Below, in pieces: positions 19,064 through 28,570 of a stretch of 64,000 nt of DNA. The translations under genes were made by a program, and so were the position numbers. This stretch comes from Canibacter zhuwentaonis (GTDB taxonomy: Bacteria; Actinomycetota; Actinomycetes; Actinomycetales; Microbacteriaceae), in assembly GCF_018531145.1 (NCBI RefSeq), contig NZ_JAHDSZ010000001.1:248001-312000 (forward strand), in the 5' to 3' direction. The notes beneath the pieces were generated by a model that saw only the letters and a list, made by a program, of their open reading frames with translations, did no database searches and was not told the DNA's origin. Within the stretch, counting starts at the first letter, position 1. Each line of letters starts with the position of its first letter.

Positions 19064-22000
19064 ATGATTACAAGTGTGAAAAATAAGAGTTTTTGGTTCG
19101 AAGAGTTGGAGCTCAACACTGGGCAGCACGCGGTTGTTTACGGTGCTCCCGGTAGTGGTAAAACTGAGCTGGCACTGAAGGCGGCAGCACAGTTTAATGA
19201 TGGTGCGTTGATTCTAGCAAACAGCTCGGAGCAGAAAAAAATACTGGAGCAGCGAGCAGGTTCTGTGAGGATCATCGCCTCAGCTGCGGTCGCTGTAGCA
19301 ACAGTGGGGTCTTTTGCGCTTGATATTTTGAAGCAGGAGGCCGCGATAAACGGTGATCCTGTTCCGAGTCTAATACCTGCAGCTGCTCAAGATGAGCTGA
19401 TTAAAAAAGCGGTTGCAGATTTACAGTTAGCAGAGCTTGCAGAGCTGCAGGAAAACCCAAATTTCTGCACTGAAATACGGGATGTGTGGCGGGTTCTTGA
19501 TGAACGCAATATTTTAGGCGAATTGCCCGGTGACCTGCTCGACAGTGCTAACTTTTACGCTCCGCTGTGGCGAGCCGCAACAGCGGTTGTGCAGTGTTGC
19601 AGAGAGAGATTGGCAGGCAGCGGCACGTACACAGCAGATAGCATCGCGAATCGTGCGGCGCAGCTTATAAGCGAGCATCCGATGTCGCGTTTCAAGCTGC
19701 CAAAGCTAGTTCTTGTTGACGACGCGGCGGATCTACTGCGCACAGGAGAAAACCTTCTCGTTGCGCTCGCGCATAAGGGGGTTACAGTGTGGCTTTTTGC
19801 CGATCCTGACACAGCGTCTACGGTTTATAAGGGCGGTAACTCGCAGCTTATTATTGAGGCTGACAGGCTAAATCCTGTGTCACTAACTTCTGTTATGCCG
19901 AAGATCGATCGGGTGTATCTGCCAACTGTGCACAGGCAGGGTAGTGAGTTGCGTCGGGTGTGTGAGAAAATCAGCCAGCGCATTGGCGCTAGAAGAATTA
20001 TTGATCACCGCAAAGCCCTTGCTGCTGTTGATAGAGAGTCAGTTTTTAAACTGCACTTAGCAGCTTCAGATTCTGAGCGCATAAGCGCTATTGCTTATGA
20101 GTTACGGGCGGCTCGTCTGCTCAGGAAAACGCCGCTTGAATGGTCTGACATGATGGTTATTTGTCGCACCAGAAGCGAAGTTGAGAGGCTTGCTCGCGAG
20201 CTGAAAAACCGCGAGGTGTCAACGACTACGCTTGGCGGGGGTGTGATTCTTAAAAACTCTGCTATCGTGCGTGATCTTGTGACCATTTTAGAAACTGTGC
20301 TTTCTGAGTCGCAGTTTAGCGCAGAGCAAATTATTAGGCTATTATCAGGCCCCTTGTTTGGGGTGAGTATGCCCAAGCTGCGAAATTTGCAGGCGCATAT
20401 GCTGGCTGTTTATAACGCTGTCGAAGCTGATGCCGCAGAGGTAGATGCTCCAGCTAGTGGATATGTAAAGCTTAAATACAAAAATTCTGAGAAGGTGTTT
20501 GAGAATTTTATTGCTTCTAATGATATTGCGAATGTCACCTCTAAGATGGCATTTGATAATCGCGCATATCAGGCTTTGCTGCAACTGCGCACGATAATTA
20601 CGCAGACACGCAAACAAATTCCAACCCACACGGTGAGAGAAATGCTGTGGCAGATTTGGAGCGGGGCTGGCATAGTGGAAGAGCTACGCAATATGGCGCT
20701 CGGTTCGGATGCTATAGCTGCAAAATACGGGAATGAGATGCTGGATGCTGTATGCCAGCTTTTCCATGTTTTCAAGATGAACGAAACCGAGAGCACGGCG
20801 CTATCACCGCTAGATCTCTGTGCTCAGATTTTGCGCAGTGACACTCCGCAAACTAAGTTTATAAATGCATCCGCGCAGCAGGCTGTTATCGTCACCACAG
20901 CTAACAGCGTTGCAGGGCTCGAAGCTAAACTCGTGTGCGTTACGCAGTTGCAGTCGGGGCAGTGGCCAAACCTTAAAAAACAGGGCTCGATGTTTGCCAT
21001 ATCAGAGCTTACCTCGGCACTTGACGATGAAACAGCTGATGCTGCAGAACAAGATTACAGAACACAGGTTACGCACGACGAACTACGCCTATTCCTAATC
21101 TCGTGCTCACGCGCAAGCAGTGAATTGCACCTGTTTGCGATGAGCTCTGAGAGCGAAGCGCCGAGTCAGTTCTGGAATATTTTTGGCGGAGAAGAAAACG
21201 CTGACGAAGTATCACAACAAACTACTATAAAGAATGGTTTAACACTGCGTGATCGAGTGGCTAGTTTGCGTTATCAGCTTGAGCTTGACCCTGATAATAA
21301 CGAGGTTGCAGGGCAACTAGCTAGATTTGCGCTGCAGGGTGTGCCAGGCGCAAACCCTGCGGAGTGGTACGGCTATCTGCAGCCGAGCACTGCACGGGGT
21401 GTTTTGCCGAAAGAAAACCTTAGAATACCAGGAAGTAGGCTTGACAACATTGAAAGATGCCCGCTGGAAACCGTGTTTTATATTTTAAACGGCAAAACGA
21501 CTGATAATGCCAGGCTGCACGAGAATATTATTTTGCACGATTTAGTGGGCACGAAAGAGGATGAAGATACGCTTATGTCGCTGCGTAATCAGTTTATCGA
21601 GCGGATGTTTGAAATACTCCGCAACGATATTCCCGCTATTGGTGAACTTAAACACAGGGGAGTTAAAGAAAAATTTAACGATCAAGTTTTAAGCAAGTCT
21701 GTGGAAAAATTCAAAGGTAAAATACTGGCGAGTAACGCTGAATACAATTTGAGTGTTGATGGGGTAACCGTTTATGGCAGCGTAGACCTTGTTTTGGGTG
21801 ATTCAGACAGTGCCGGGAGTTCTAAGAATCTGGAGCTTGTGGATGTCAGCTCTAAGTCGAAGATCTCAGCCAAGGACAGTTATTTTCTTACCAGTATGAT
21901 AATAGCTGCAGCGGATGGCGCAATTGAAGGTATCTCAACGGATGATAAACAAGTGAGCGCTAAGTTCTTATACATATCGAAAGGGAAACTCGCAGAGCTC

Positions 22001-22252
22001 TCTAGAGAGTCTAAGAAATCTAAGGCTGCGGGTGAGGGAGCTGCCGAAACAGCTGAAAAGAACGGCGAGAAGCATCTGCGTGATGAATTTCACGCTTTTG
22101 TGCAAGAAGCGGCGAAAGCGTTAACGTCCAGAGAGGTCAAAGCTAAAACAGTTTCACACTGCGAACTGTATAGCTCTTATGGAATACGAGAATGTCAAAA
22201 ATTACTAATACCTGCTGTGAGCTGGCAGAATGAGCAGTACGATCAAAACTGA
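19064..22252 (+). CDS. adnA: AdnA-like subunit of the AdnAB helicase-nuclease, eroded motifs
   Basis: A UvrD-like motor fused to a RecB-type nuclease, 1062 residues, in the place of Rv3202c; AdnA and AdnB together resect double-strand breaks. Walker A is intact (GAPGSGKT, 27-34). Walker B reads VLVDDAADLL (about 216-225). Later motifs have drifted: motif III reads FADPDTASTVYKGG where DPDQ-x-I-x-x-F/W-R-G is usual, and motif VI reads LISCSRASSELHL where V-A-x-T-R-A-R is usual. In the nuclease domain GSVDLV keeps an Asp, but the D-x-K motif has become LVDVSSKSK and no Q-x3-Y helix follows. The usual cysteine cluster is incomplete (RCP, then C-x2-Y-x7-C). AdnA may thus be mainly structural. A GGGGG site precedes the ATG. 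The composition is more AT-rich than in flanking genes. Confidence 0.85.
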   Translation: MITSVKNKSFWFEELELNTGQHAVVYGAPGSGKTELALKAAAQFNDGALILANSSEQKKILEQRAGSVRIIASAAVAVATVGSFALDILKQEAAINGDPVPSLIPAAAQDELIKKAVADLQLAELAELQENPNFCTEIRDVWRVLDERNILGELPGDLLDSANFYAPLWRAATAVVQCCRERLAGSGTYTADSIANRAAQLISEHPMSRFKLPKLVLVDDAADLLRTGENLLVALAHKGVTVWLFADPDTASTVYKGGNSQLIIEADRLNPVSLTSVMPKIDRVYLPTVHRQGSELRRVCEKISQRIGARRIIDHRKALAAVDRESVFKLHLAASDSERISAIAYELRAARLLRKTPLEWSDMMVICRTRSEVERLARELKNREVSTTTLGGGVILKNSAIVRDLVTILETVLSESQFSAEQIIRLLSGPLFGVSMPKLRNLQAHMLAVYNAVEADAAEVDAPASGYVKLKYKNSEKVFENFIASNDIANVTSKMAFDNRAYQALLQLRTIITQTRKQIPTHTVREMLWQIWSGAGIVEELRNMALGSDAIAAKYGNEMLDAVCQLFHVFKMNETESTALSPLDLCAQILRSDTPQTKFINASAQQAVIVTTANSVAGLEAKLVCVTQLQSGQWPNLKKQGSMFAISELTSALDDETADAAEQDYRTQVTHDELRLFLISCSRASSELHLFAMSSESEAPSQFWNIFGGEENADEVSQQTTIKNGLTLRDRVASLRYQLELDPDNNEVAGQLARFALQGVPGANPAEWYGYLQPSTARGVLPKENLRIPGSRLDNIERCPLETVFYILNGKTTDNARLHENIILHDLVGTKEDEDTLMSLRNQFIERMFEILRNDIPAIGELKHRGVKEKFNDQVLSKSVEKFKGKILASNAEYNLSVDGVTVYGSVDLVLGDSDSAGSSKNLELVDVSSKSKISAKDSYFLTSMIIAAADGAIEGISTDDKQVSAKFLYISKGKLAELSRESKKSKAAGEGAAETAEKNGEKHLRDEFHAFVQEAAKALTSREVKAKTVSHCELYSSYGIRECQKLLIPAVSWQNEQYDQN

Positions 22253-22260
22253 GGAAAACA

Positions 22261-25200
22261 ATGAGTAAAGAAATTTTCACTCCTGAACAAATTGCCGAAT
22301 TATTAGCGGTTGACGAGCAGTCTGTTAAAAAACCCTCACAAGAACAGAAAAAAATCATCACAGCAGAGCTTGGCGCGCAGTATCTTGTGATGGCTGGAGC
22401 GGGTTCCGGTAAAACCGAAACACTGTCACAGCGTGTGCTCTGGCTTGTTGTTAACGGGTATGTTAAACCCACAGAAATTTTAGGACTGACCTTTGCAAAC
22501 AAAGCAAAAAAAGAACTTAGCGAGAGGTTACAAACCAGACTCGCGTTGTTTATAACTAACGCGAGTGATCGTGCAAGCGGTCTTAACGGTGAGCAAAAGG
22601 CACGAGTTGATGAGCTAGCGAAACTAAAGTTTGCCGAAGGCTTTAACCTGCCCGATGTTTTCACCTATGATGCTTTTGCAGGGTCTCTTATATCAGAGTT
22701 CGGAGGAAACGTAGGGCTGCGCTCGAATATGAATATTATTTCAGAGTCGCAAGCGCAAATGCTCGCCTATAAAATGCTGAAAAAAATTGACCACTCTTTA
22801 CTAATAAATCTGGGTGATTCAAACACCGATGAGATTATTAAAAATATCGTCAAGCTTGAAGAAACAATGACGAATAACGATAGCGATGAGGAGATAGTTT
22901 CTGCGGAGATTACGAAGCTTGTTAAGTTACTTGAAGGTCTAACAACAGGTGCCAATACCAGGACAGCGCAAGGCAAGCGGGATGAAGTGGTTGCTGACAT
23001 TACCTATACTAAAAACCTACTTCCGCTCGTTGCTGAATACCGGGCTTTCAAACGCAAAAACAATATGTTCCGGTTCTCGGATCAGATGGCAACTGCAAAA
23101 AAGATCTTCGATAAGAGCGAACACGCCTTAAACACTATTAGGAATCGTTATCGGGTTGTTTTACTTGATGAAGTGCAAGACACCTCAGCCGGGCAGACGG
23201 AGCTCTTGTCGAAAATATTCAGCGGGCTCACTGTTATGGGTGTGGGGGATCCACACCAGTCTATTTACAGCTGGCGCGGAGCATCCGCCGATAGTATGTC
23301 CAAATTTCTGGAGCACTATCGCGGTGATAAGCAGCTGCTCGGCAAGCAGTTTAGTATTTCCACCAGCTGGCGTAACTCTGAGAAGGTTTTAGAGGTTGCT
23401 AATCTAATTGCAGCCCCTCTTAGGAAACTTGTCAATGTTAATTCTGAAATGAAAATGGACGTGAAAAAGCTTAAGGCTGCGCCAAATGCTGAAGCGGGCA
23501 GTGTTGAATGTGAAATTTACGAAACTTCTGTTGAAGATGTTCAAAACACTGCTAAAAAAATCAAAAAGTTGCGTGACCTGGCTGCTGCTGAAGGCAAAGA
23601 ACCTCCTACCATTGCAATTTTGTGCAGGAATAATGATCCGCTGCCTAACTATCAAAAGGAGTTACAAAAAATCGGAGTGCCAGCAGTGGTAGTTGGTAGC
23701 GGCGGGATGCTGGCTACTCCTGAAATCATGGACTTGCTGTCGATGCTTAGAATCCTCAGCGACTCAGATGCTAGCAGTGCGCTTATTAGAATACTAGAGG
23801 GTCCGCGCTATCGCATAGGTTTAGGTGATTTAGCAGAGCTAACTAATTTCGCCAGAGAGCTGCAAAAAGCAGATAGCAAACGCATACCGGAGAGTGTTGT
23901 AGACACTTCAAAGGAACACTATGAGCGTATTGTCACCAATGTGCTGGCACTTGACAGACTAGCTTCTTTAGATTCCGATTCCGAATTGCTGCAAGACTTT
24001 AGCGAAGAAGGGATTTTACGTTTACAACGAGCGGCGCAAGATTTCAGGGAGCTGCGGCGTTACACTACGGGATCTATTCCAGACTTAATCATGGCCTGCG
24101 TTGCGCATTTACGGCTTGATGTTGAGCTCCTGGCACACCCGAAGTTCCGGGATTTATCTACGGGGGAGGTTAAAATTGACCCACTAAGTAATATTAACGA
24201 TTTTGTGAGATTTGTTGAGGATTATTTGAGGGCGAATCCGGCTGCCGATTTAGTAGAAGTGCTACAGTGGATTGAGATTGCTCAGCGTGAAAATGATGAC
24301 CCCGACAAAAATATTGAAGTTAGTCGAGAAGCTGTGCAGCTGCTTACAGGGCATAAAGCAAAGGGACTTGAATGGGACTTCGTGTTCATGCCGGAAATGC
24401 TATATTTTGTTCCTCGGGAAACAAGCATCGGTGAATTAAAAAAAGCGAAGCTGCTACCGCAGCTTCGCAAAGACTCAGATTCAGATAGTGTGGCAGTGCC
24501 CGAGTTTAAGGGTATGAAGCGTATCGCAGATTTCATCAATTCAAATGGTTCGACAGGCAAGTATGCGGATTATATTGCCTCGGTGAAAGCAGAAAAAGTG
24601 CTAGAAAGACGTAGGCAGTTATACGTAATGATTACAAGGGCTAAAAAATCACTATTTTTATCCGGTAGTTTTTGGAAACCGGGCAGTGCCACAGCAAACA
24701 TGCGAGATAAGAAGGCTAGCCTTGCTTATCTAACCGAGATTGAAACAGTTATCGGCAATATTCAAAATAAAGAGACTAAATTAGATAAAAATCCTTTGCA
24801 TGACTCCGGTAAAGTGGTGTGGCCATTAAACCCGCTGGGATCTCGGGAAAACAAAATTAAAAAAGCCGGTGATGCAGTGGCTGAACTGTTAAACAAAGCT
24901 CGCAAGGGTTCGAGTGAGCCTCTAGCGAAGCTCAGCTTGTTAGACGAAGAGTTGCTACGCGAACACAAAGCCCGCAGCGCAGGCGTGCTTGATGTCAAGC
25001 CTCACGTTAATGCGTCGTCGTTTTATAAGCTGCAGGAGAACCCTAAAGAGTACTGGCGCAATAATCTGCGACCTGTTCCGGAAGCGCCGTCTCGCAGGGC
25101 TGATATCGGTAACAGATTCCATGAATGGGTTGAGCGGCAGTATACAACCGAGATAGGAAAGAGCCTTCAGATCTCAGGGCTTGAGACGCGAGAAGTGCCT

Positions 25201-25656
25201 CACCGTAGTGAGCTTAATTACGGCACTGAGCATCTTGAAAAGATGAAACAAAACTTTGCGGAATCAATCTGGGGCAATAAGCAGCCATTGCATCTGGAAC
25301 TGGCACTTGAGAATCCGTTTGCTGACTCATCTGTTAGATCAAGAATTGATGCGATCTACGAATGGGAAGACGATACTGAGCAAGAGAGCACAATTGAAAT
25401 TGTCGACTGGAAAACAGGTGCTTTGCCAGAAAACACTGGCAACAATATAGCCTCCGAGTTCCTGCAGCTGCAAATATATCGCCACGTGTACTCGCAGCAG
25501 TACGATGTTGCTCTTGAGCGGATTAACGCCACCCTGTTTTACGTTGCAGAAAACAGGGTCTATAAACTCAAAGACCTTCCGGCAGCAGAAATATTAAGCT
25601 TTGCAGAGCTTGAAGCTATATATTACGACCGCAGGAAGCAGGCTGCGGCAGAGTAA
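22261..25656 (+). CDS. adnB: AdnB subunit of the AdnAB helicase-nuclease
   Basis: A 1131-residue SF1A helicase plus RecB-family nuclease, partner of the gene 8 bases upstream and equivalent to Rv3201c. All helicase motifs are present: Q motif PSQEQKKII, I AGAGSGKT (about 45-52), Ia LTFANKAKKEL, II LLDEVQDTS (about 299-307), III VGDPHQSIYSWRGAS, V TGHKAKGLEWDFVF (about 696-709) and VI QLYVMITRAKKSL. The nuclease domain is also intact: GNRFHEWVERQ (about 950), RIDAIYEW, IVDWKTGALPE (about 1047) and LQLQIYRHVY. Known AdnAB complexes unwind and cut DNA ends to give single strands for strand exchange. AdnB is likely the active motor and nuclease here. The gene is AT-rich relative to its surroundings. 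Confidence 0.93.
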   Translation: MSKEIFTPEQIAELLAVDEQSVKKPSQEQKKIITAELGAQYLVMAGAGSGKTETLSQRVLWLVVNGYVKPTEILGLTFANKAKKELSERLQTRLALFITNASDRASGLNGEQKARVDELAKLKFAEGFNLPDVFTYDAFAGSLISEFGGNVGLRSNMNIISESQAQMLAYKMLKKIDHSLLINLGDSNTDEIIKNIVKLEETMTNNDSDEEIVSAEITKLVKLLEGLTTGANTRTAQGKRDEVVADITYTKNLLPLVAEYRAFKRKNNMFRFSDQMATAKKIFDKSEHALNTIRNRYRVVLLDEVQDTSAGQTELLSKIFSGLTVMGVGDPHQSIYSWRGASADSMSKFLEHYRGDKQLLGKQFSISTSWRNSEKVLEVANLIAAPLRKLVNVNSEMKMDVKKLKAAPNAEAGSVECEIYETSVEDVQNTAKKIKKLRDLAAAEGKEPPTIAILCRNNDPLPNYQKELQKIGVPAVVVGSGGMLATPEIMDLLSMLRILSDSDASSALIRILEGPRYRIGLGDLAELTNFARELQKADSKRIPESVVDTSKEHYERIVTNVLALDRLASLDSDSELLQDFSEEGILRLQRAAQDFRELRRYTTGSIPDLIMACVAHLRLDVELLAHPKFRDLSTGEVKIDPLSNINDFVRFVEDYLRANPAADLVEVLQWIEIAQRENDDPDKNIEVSREAVQLLTGHKAKGLEWDFVFMPEMLYFVPRETSIGELKKAKLLPQLRKDSDSDSVAVPEFKGMKRIADFINSNGSTGKYADYIASVKAEKVLERRRQLYVMITRAKKSLFLSGSFWKPGSATANMRDKKASLAYLTEIETVIGNIQNKETKLDKNPLHDSGKVVWPLNPLGSRENKIKKAGDAVAELLNKARKGSSEPLAKLSLLDEELLREHKARSAGVLDVKPHVNASSFYKLQENPKEYWRNNLRPVPEAPSRRADIGNRFHEWVERQYTTEIGKSLQISGLETREVPHRSELNYGTEHLEKMKQNFAESIWGNKQPLHLELALENPFADSSVRSRIDAIYEWEDDTEQESTIEIVDWKTGALPENTGNNIASEFLQLQIYRHVYSQQYDVALERINATLFYVAENRVYKLKDLPAAEILSFAELEAIYYDRRKQAAAE

Positions 25657-26793: not shown

Positions 26794-26863
26794 ATATCAA
26801 GCGTATGCAACTGTGGGGAGTATCACAAACCGCCACGCGCAATTTAAGAAAGCAGGTTATCTT

Positions 26864-28570
26864 ATGCACTCAAAAGCTGAAAAAATACTGCTCGAGTTAG
26901 ACGACACCCAGCGTCAGGTTGCGATGTGCTTGCGCGGTCCGGTCGCGGTTTTTGCGGGTGCGGGAAGCGGTAAAACTCGCACAATAATATATCGTATAGC
27001 CTACGCCGTTGCATCTGGCGAGTTTGCTTCCGAGCAGATTCTAGCACTCACATACACGCGCAAAGCTGCCGCCGAGATGAAGACCCGGCTTGCTGTTCTC
27101 GGCATAAAAGGCGTGGAGGTCAGAACTTTTCACTCACTAGCGCTCGGGCAGTTGCAGCACTACTGGCAGAGCGTTATTGGTGGGCAAAATCCTTCCCTGG
27201 TGCGCAACACGCGCGAGATTACAGCGCGGGCGCTGGAGCGCGTTAATGTCTTTCTGAGCTCTGCAGCGCTGGCGGATCTTGACTCAGAAATAAAACTGCG
27301 AAAAACAAATATGCTGCACTACGAAACTTATGAAAAACTAATCGGAAATAAACGCAACCCGGGCGGGCTAACACCGCACCAGGTTGTAACGGTTATGAGA
27401 GAGTATGAGCGGCTCAAGCTGATCGACAAGCAAATTGACAGCGAAGACAGCATCGCGCTGATTACAGCCCTGATTAAAAGCGAAGAGTATATTGCGAGCA
27501 AGATTCACGCCGGGCATCGGTTGATAACGGTTGATGAGTACCAGGATATTTCCGCGCTGCAGCAGGCGTATCTTGACGCGCTACTCGGCAAAAACCGCAA
27601 TCTGTGTGTTGTTGGTGATGTGAGCCAGACTATTTTTAGTTTCGCCGGGGCGAAACGAGACTATTTACTAAACTTCAAACGCCGCTACCGTGATGCGAAA
27701 GTTTTCGAGCTGACGCACAGCTACCGTTCAAGCCAGCAAATTATTAGCGCGGCAAACGCCCTGATGAGCAAACAGAAGGGAAGCCTAGTTTTGCGCAGCA
27801 GGCATAAAAAGAACGCTGAAGAGGTATCCTGTGTGCAATTTGGGAACGTTGCAATCGAGTACGCTACGATCGCAAATATAATCCGCACGCAGCTGCGGGG
27901 CGAGCGCACAGCCTCGCAGATCGCAATTCTTGCGCGCAAGGGATGGCAGCTTGAAAAGATTGCCGATGTTTTGCGCGCAGCGGGTATTCCGGTGAAAGAA
28001 CGAGATAAGCTAAAGTTTTTCGAACGCCAAGAAGTTAAACGGGTGCTCTTGCACCTAGCAAGCTTAAACAATGTTGAAAAATCCTCGGTATTACCACAGT
28101 TTCAAATAGTAACTGACGTACTGCGCCGTCACGGATGGTCGCCAACCAAGCCGCAATCGGTTAGAGAGTTTGAAGAGTGGATGTACCTCAACGCTTGCAA
28201 CACGATTATCTCAAAAATGATGAGTGAGGGCGACTCGCTTGCTACAATCGTTGCAAAACTGCATGATATGGCGGCGCGCGAATACGAGCCTGAAATTGAG
28301 GCGGTGACTCTGAGTACGATCCACTCGGCAAAAGGCCTTGAGTGGGAGTGCGTATACCTGACAGGTTGCGCAGAGGGCATTCTGCCCGCGAGGCAGAGCC
28401 TTAAACACGCGCACCGTATTGACGAAGAGCGTCGCCTGGCGTACGTCGCATTCACTCGCGCTCGCACACAGCTGCGCATCTCCTTCAGCGCAGACTCTGG
28501 AGGTGACAAAGACGCGAGTGTTTCTAGGTTTATTACGGAGGCGCAAATTCCGGTGCTGGTGTCAGAATAG
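26864..28570 (+). CDS. UvrD2-like SF1 DNA helicase without HRDC domain
   Basis: A UvrD/Rep-type 3'-5' helicase of about 568 residues, placed as Rv3198c (UvrD2) is in mycobacteria. Motifs: Q motif LDDTQRQVA, I AGAGSGKTRTI, Ia LTYTRKAAAEM, II ITVDEYQDISALQ, III VVGDVSQTIFSFAGA, IV YRSSQQII, V LSTIHSAKGLEWECVYL and VI RRLAYVAFTRARTQL. It ends about 30 residues after motif VI. The tetracysteine segment and HRDC domain of UvrD2 are absent, giving a shorter protein. I chose the ATG at 26864 (after AGCAGG) over a GTG 17 codons upstream. Confidence 0.9.
   Translation: MHSKAEKILLELDDTQRQVAMCLRGPVAVFAGAGSGKTRTIIYRIAYAVASGEFASEQILALTYTRKAAAEMKTRLAVLGIKGVEVRTFHSLALGQLQHYWQSVIGGQNPSLVRNTREITARALERVNVFLSSAALADLDSEIKLRKTNMLHYETYEKLIGNKRNPGGLTPHQVVTVMREYERLKLIDKQIDSEDSIALITALIKSEEYIASKIHAGHRLITVDEYQDISALQQAYLDALLGKNRNLCVVGDVSQTIFSFAGAKRDYLLNFKRRYRDAKVFELTHSYRSSQQIISAANALMSKQKGSLVLRSRHKKNAEEVSCVQFGNVAIEYATIANIIRTQLRGERTASQIAILARKGWQLEKIADVLRAAGIPVKERDKLKFFERQEVKRVLLHLASLNNVEKSSVLPQFQIVTDVLRRHGWSPTKPQSVREFEEWMYLNACNTIISKMMSEGDSLATIVAKLHDMAAREYEPEIEAVTLSTIHSAKGLEWECVYLTGCAEGILPARQSLKHAHRIDEERRLAYVAFTRARTQLRISFSADSGGDKDASVSRFITEAQIPVLVSE

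Follow-up and report, generated by a model that had tools for sequence, protein, structure and literature searches.

The adnA-adnB pair of Canibacter zhuwentaonis appears to encode an orthodox AdnAB complex in which the nuclease site of AdnA has been mostly lost in the lineage of this one species, leaving one motor, one nuclease and an AdnA with a structural role; we give this reading a probability of about 60%. Descriptions of AdnAB present it as a dual-nuclease machine, and a natural one-nuclease complex would amount to evolution's own test of AdnA cutting in repair. The reach of a lineage-specific loss, seen in one species and in a well-known enzyme, is modest.

The adnA-adnB locus and its motor subunits

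The DNA analysed is a window of 64,000 nucleotides from contig NZ_JAHDSZ010000001.1 of C. zhuwentaonis, a member of the family Microbacteriaceae with a genome of 1.41 Mb, whose named relatives include Leucobacter, Leifsonia, and Microbacterium. All positions are given within this window, and the features of adnA and adnB lie on the forward (+) strand. An intact adnA ORF of 1062 amino acids (19064 to 22252) is followed after a gap of 8 bases by an adnB ORF of 1131 amino acids (22261 to 25656). The Pfam domains UvrD-helicase and UvrD_C were found in AdnA above the cut-off, and UvrD-helicase, UvrD_C, and PDDEXK_1 in AdnB. The best PDB relatives of AdnA are the M. smegmatis AdnA chains 7sjr_A and 6ppj_A, which match it over the full length in both sequence and fold. 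The genome search found adnA as a single copy and thereby ruled out a second AdnA elsewhere. The domains, the matches to M. smegmatis AdnA and the single copy together identify the pair as adnA-adnB. The layout is that of an AdnA subunit, with a UvrD-like motor and then a RecB-like domain in about 1050 residues, beside adnB; the motor domain covers residues 1-770 (19064 to 21373) and the nuclease-like domain residues 784-1062 (21413 to 22249). Third-position GC content is about 0.43-0.50 in adnA and adnB (19064 to 25656) and 0.56-0.62 in the neighbouring genes. A gene for a 585-residue UvrD/PcrA-like helicase lies at 26813 to 28570, beyond the divergent gene that follows adnAB.

The residue-by-residue reading covers 117 AdnAs, namely that of C. 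zhuwentaonis and 116 others, of which 76 come from named loci and 40 from genomes belonging to its genus, family, or order, while 400 Microbacteriaceae genomes were covered by a scan for AdnA nuclease matches. The species is represented by one genome, and its relatives are only about 30% identical to it.

The Walker A motif of AdnA, GAPGSGKT (residues 27-34; 19142 to 19165), aligns with its Lys33 intact, as a preliminary description of this DNA had said, and with Arg291 of motif IV and Arg683 of motif VI also in place, AdnA has the residues looked for in an AdnA motor. Motif II reads VDDA (Asp219-Asp220; 19718 to 19723), and its second acid is likewise Asp in 102 of 111 other AdnAs. Motif III, DPDTASTVYKGG (19802 to 19837), had been described as lacking the usual Gln and Arg, and the alignment does place Thr250 and Lys256 at these positions; however, no more than 17 of 111 other AdnAs have the Gln, so that its absence here means nothing, and the Arg, found in 97 of 111 others, is gone from all five members of the genus (which have K, H, N, Y, and Q). 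The same description had motif VI without its T-R-A-R. The sequence SCSRASSEL is indeed there, but the loss was over-called, since the key Arg683 (21110 to 21112) is kept, as it is in 105 of 114 others, and the last Arg of TRAR is found in only 66 of 114.

Over the whole motor, 46 of 56 near-invariant AdnA positions are kept, which is inside the range of the relatives. This value and the counts for motifs II, III, and VI indicate that a non-canonical AdnA motor is the norm of the family. The proposal of a single-motor machine is thus right about the state of the AdnA motor and wrong if taken as a new event; a motor-specific loss of that kind was rejected because the changes are family-wide or genus-wide in the table of 117 AdnAs. 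Sinha et al. are said to have found in 2009 that mutations of the AdnA motor have little effect in mycobacteria. One congener (G002, locus L033) has the opposite pattern, with an eroded AdnA motor (Asp-Asn in motif II and DEAAETTPANG as motif III) and intact nuclease residues.

AdnB has all the motor motifs and nuclease residues of its subunit type: Lys51, Asp303-Glu304, Gln333, Arg339, Arg371, and Arg793 are intact in the motor, and His954, Asp1030, Asp1049, Lys1051, Gln1069, and Tyr1073 in the nuclease. The view that AdnB keeps every motif that AdnA has lost therefore stands for the catalytic residues but not for the cysteine cluster, which is absent, the cysteines of AdnB being at 417, 455, and 613 only.

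Residue losses in the AdnA nuclease domain

Of the 22 near-invariant nuclease positions, 15 are lost and 7 remain in the nuclease-like domain of AdnA, whereas ten other AdnAs tested have kept 14-22. The metal-binding His and two Asp are among the residues that remain: His825 of the GxxxH motif (21536 to 21538), Asp908 of the GxxD motif (21785 to 21787) and, in the DxK motif (21842 to 21850), Asp927. The Lys of DxK has become Ser929, and in the Q-x3-Y helix (21884 to 21898), placed by alignment and structure models, Gln has become Phe941 and Tyr has become Met945. Among the other AdnAs, the lysine is found in 115 of 115, and Gln and Tyr each in 115 of 116. Every complete one, all four congeners included, retains the lysine of DxK together with the Gln and Tyr of the helix; a loss common to the genus was rejected on account of these congeners. 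The AdnA of C. zhuwentaonis thus lacks the lysine and the helix pair of a catalytic PD-(D/E)xK site. It has further lost the TG that follows DxK, Arg909 (the residue next to Asp908, now Leu909), Glu911, and Glu891.

Pfam finds two PDDEXK_1 modules in each of the four congeners and one, that of AdnB, in C. zhuwentaonis; when the AdnA nuclease domains are searched in isolation, the relatives score 84-172 bits against PDDEXK_1 and C. zhuwentaonis gives no match. In the scan of 400 Microbacteriaceae genomes, it has the weakest nuclease match of any full AdnA (5.3e-21, the next being 8.5e-38), and anything weaker than this comes from AdnB frames or from fragments in genomes that are incomplete; of the three weakest, two are AdnB-type frames (G209 and G411) and one is a short match (G315). 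No further clear loss was found among the other low-scoring Microbacteriaceae AdnAs that were read, several of which have plain DLKTG or DFKTG motifs. On this sequence evidence, the loss of the AdnA nuclease is real and, in our sample, unique to C. zhuwentaonis.

A separate observation from the same scan concerns five small-genome Microbacteriaceae without an AdnA nuclease match, three of one genus (G107, G169, and G221) and two of another (G272 and G397). The completeness of G272 is 99%, and all five are candidates for complete loss of AdnAB.

It had been suggested that the D-x-K of the nuclease is displaced (VDVSSKSK) and that the Q-x3-Y helix is missing. The first sequence is present as given; its lysine, however, is lost and not displaced, as Asp927 is in place and is followed by Ser929, while the downstream KSK (Lys931 and Lys933) aligns with the lysines that come after the TG in a congener (DLKTGKSKVS in G004). 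The Gln and Tyr of the helix are gone, but the helix itself is predicted at residues 940-950 in both structure models. AlphaFold keeps the PD-(D/E)xK fold (pLDDT 83.4 and pTM 0.82 for the 279-residue model, the models having drawn on an alignment of intact relatives), and the top PDB matches of the nuclease-domain model are AdnA nuclease domains. In the models, Ser929 ends the third strand (922-929), and the loop from there to helix 940-950 contains Lys931 and Lys933. Catalytic residues at shifted positions, which would have spoken for an intact site, were not seen in these predicted structures, and no lysine appears to be displaced into the site.

The cysteine cluster is less telling. Cys1033 and Cys1044 (22160 to 22195) make up, with Cys799 (21458 to 21460), a three-cysteine state that is common in Microbacteriaceae. 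The cluster is incomplete, as had been pointed out, and the four cysteines of an iron-sulfur cluster are not all there; as a sign of special loss this fails, because the same state is found in 48 of 117 AdnAs. Being the commonest in the sample, it makes an incomplete cluster ordinary. AdnAs without a cluster number 32-40 of 117 and those with four cysteines 22-27 of 117, the latter mainly outside Microbacteriaceae, and within the family the presence of four cysteines does not discriminate. In Microbacteriaceae AdnAs, the iron-sulfur cluster has seemingly been lost stepwise (four, three, and zero cysteines) with the nuclease residues intact, which casts doubt on whether the cluster is needed.

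The AdnA nuclease domain has evolved about twice as fast as its own motor predicts. With a fixed topology, the branches leading to C. zhuwentaonis measure 1.99 substitutions per site for the AdnA nuclease, 1.08 for the AdnA motor, 1.02 for the AdnB motor, and 0.83 for the AdnB nuclease. Among 25 taxa, C. zhuwentaonis has the largest nuclease/motor ratio for AdnA (1.85). In a site bootstrap of 60 replicates this amounts to 1.92 times the median of the remaining taxa, with a 5-95% range of 1.44-2.84. Fast evolution of the whole genome was rejected as the cause, because neither its own motor nor AdnB is accelerated alike and because the more divergent G002, whose overall branch is longer, is intact and keeps K, Q, and Y.

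Predicted working of the complex and rival explanations

The residue losses, the 15 of 22 positions and the domain-specific acceleration support the earlier proposal of a single-nuclease machine, and from them we infer the lost activity. The nuclease activity of AdnA would be absent or very weak; some residual activity may persist, as His825, Asp908, and Asp927 remain. In E. coli, recB K1082Q is Exo+ rec- and D1080A is exo- rec- (PMC9635670), and the first of these indicates that loss of the lysine need not abolish exonuclease activity.

In the one-motor, one-nuclease complex that we favour, AdnB would be the sole motor, tracking 3'-5', and the sole competent nuclease. AdnA would be the structural subunit that holds the complex together, with its fold and the path of the strand preserved and perhaps still able to bind ATP. 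The 5' strand, which is assigned to the AdnA nuclease from mycobacterial structures, would be carried by AdnA and would presumably exit either uncut or cut by AdnB alone. Repair would then proceed via unwinding, followed by SSB, RecO, and RecA loading. RecA and RecO are present; neither RecJ nor Ku was detected in the genus, and RecJ was accordingly rejected as a substitute 5' nuclease.

Experimental work on related enzymes suggests that such a complex could be viable. The nucleases of B. subtilis AddAB are dispensable for recombinational repair while its helicase is required (PMC12748557), and the mycobacterial studies, as cited in that paper, point the same way for AdnAB, in which recombination needs the helicase and not the nucleases. 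The loss of the AdnA nuclease should therefore be tolerable in principle, and these laboratory mutants suggest that AdnA cutting is unneeded for break repair. In M. tuberculosis, AdnA D935N is a nuclease-dead subunit within a stable, DNA-binding complex (PMC13309787). In the literature searched we found no paper describing the loss of the AdnA nuclease, although one may exist.

The suggestion that AdnA serves as a DNA-guiding scaffold is plausible by analogy, since the ORF, the fold, the cysteines, and the C-terminus persist and RecC offers a precedent. A stronger version, in which AdnA has independently become RecC-like, non-catalytic and strand-guiding at a stage before the loss of its metal-binding residues, with AdnB alone resecting, is tentative, with odds nearer one in three than one in two: the fold is kept, as in RecC, but His825, Asp908, and Asp927 are still there.

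A serious rival to the scaffold role, though we hold it to be somewhat unlikely, is decay of the nuclease domain in a reduced genome as selection on it relaxes, whereby the domain would have no role beyond attachment and the AdnAB motor would carry the function. The genome of 1.41 Mb, the roughly twofold rate of the nuclease domain relative to the motor, the dispensability of the nucleases for recombination in AddAB and AdnAB, and the small-genome Microbacteriaceae that lack any AdnA nuclease match are all consistent with it. What it explains less well is that the frame is open to a normal C-terminus (no stops over the 279 codons of the nuclease domain, where a shuffle would give about 19), with three cysteines and an IPAVSWQ tail shared with a congener (G001), that a PD-(D/E)xK fold is still predicted, and that AdnB has not decayed.

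It is improbable, in our estimation, that AdnA is still a nuclease whose active site has been remodelled, with another residue replacing the lysine. The metal-binding His825, Asp908, and Asp927 are kept, Lys931 and Lys933 lie just downstream and the E. coli recB K1082Q mutant retains exonuclease; against this, the helix Gln and Tyr, the TG after DxK, Arg909, Glu911, and Glu891 have been lost as well, and Lys931 and Lys933, in the loop after strand 922-929, are the ordinary post-motif lysines of the congeners. That the loss merely reflects errors of sequencing or assembly, paired frameshifts for example, is very improbable even though the species has a single assembly, since no DLKTG or QL-x2-YQ was found in the other reading frames, so that a frameshift is not the cause, the substitutions at 15 of 22 positions are scattered over the domain with no single shifted block, and the contig that surrounds the domain is 477 kb long.

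Comparison with known systems

In mycobacterial AdnAB, both nucleases are active. The complex of C. zhuwentaonis resembles that of mycobacteria (M. smegmatis, 6PPJ and 7SJR, and M. tuberculosis) in being built of two subunits that each combine a UvrD-like motor with a RecB-like nuclease domain, and in that adnA adjoins adnB. It differs in AdnA, as mycobacterial AdnA keeps D934-L-K and Q-x3-Y, whereas that of C. zhuwentaonis has D-V-S, Phe, and Met. The counterpart of AdnA in AddAB is AddB, which has an inactive motor that serves to scan for Chi (PMC4824097); the nuclease of AddB is active, however, and that of the AdnA studied here is degenerate.

The closest likeness in outcome is to RecC, in which a motor fold and a nuclease-like domain, both inactive, guide single strands (the strand hoop) while the partner holds the only nuclease (PMC1185551). 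C. zhuwentaonis AdnA would similarly have a non-cutting nuclease-like domain and would leave cutting to its partner. In contrast to RecC, which has no metal-binding acids, carries a separate pin domain and belongs to a different protein branch, it retains the acids and the AdnA layout, and it may illustrate an early stage in a loss of catalytic sites such as RecC went through.
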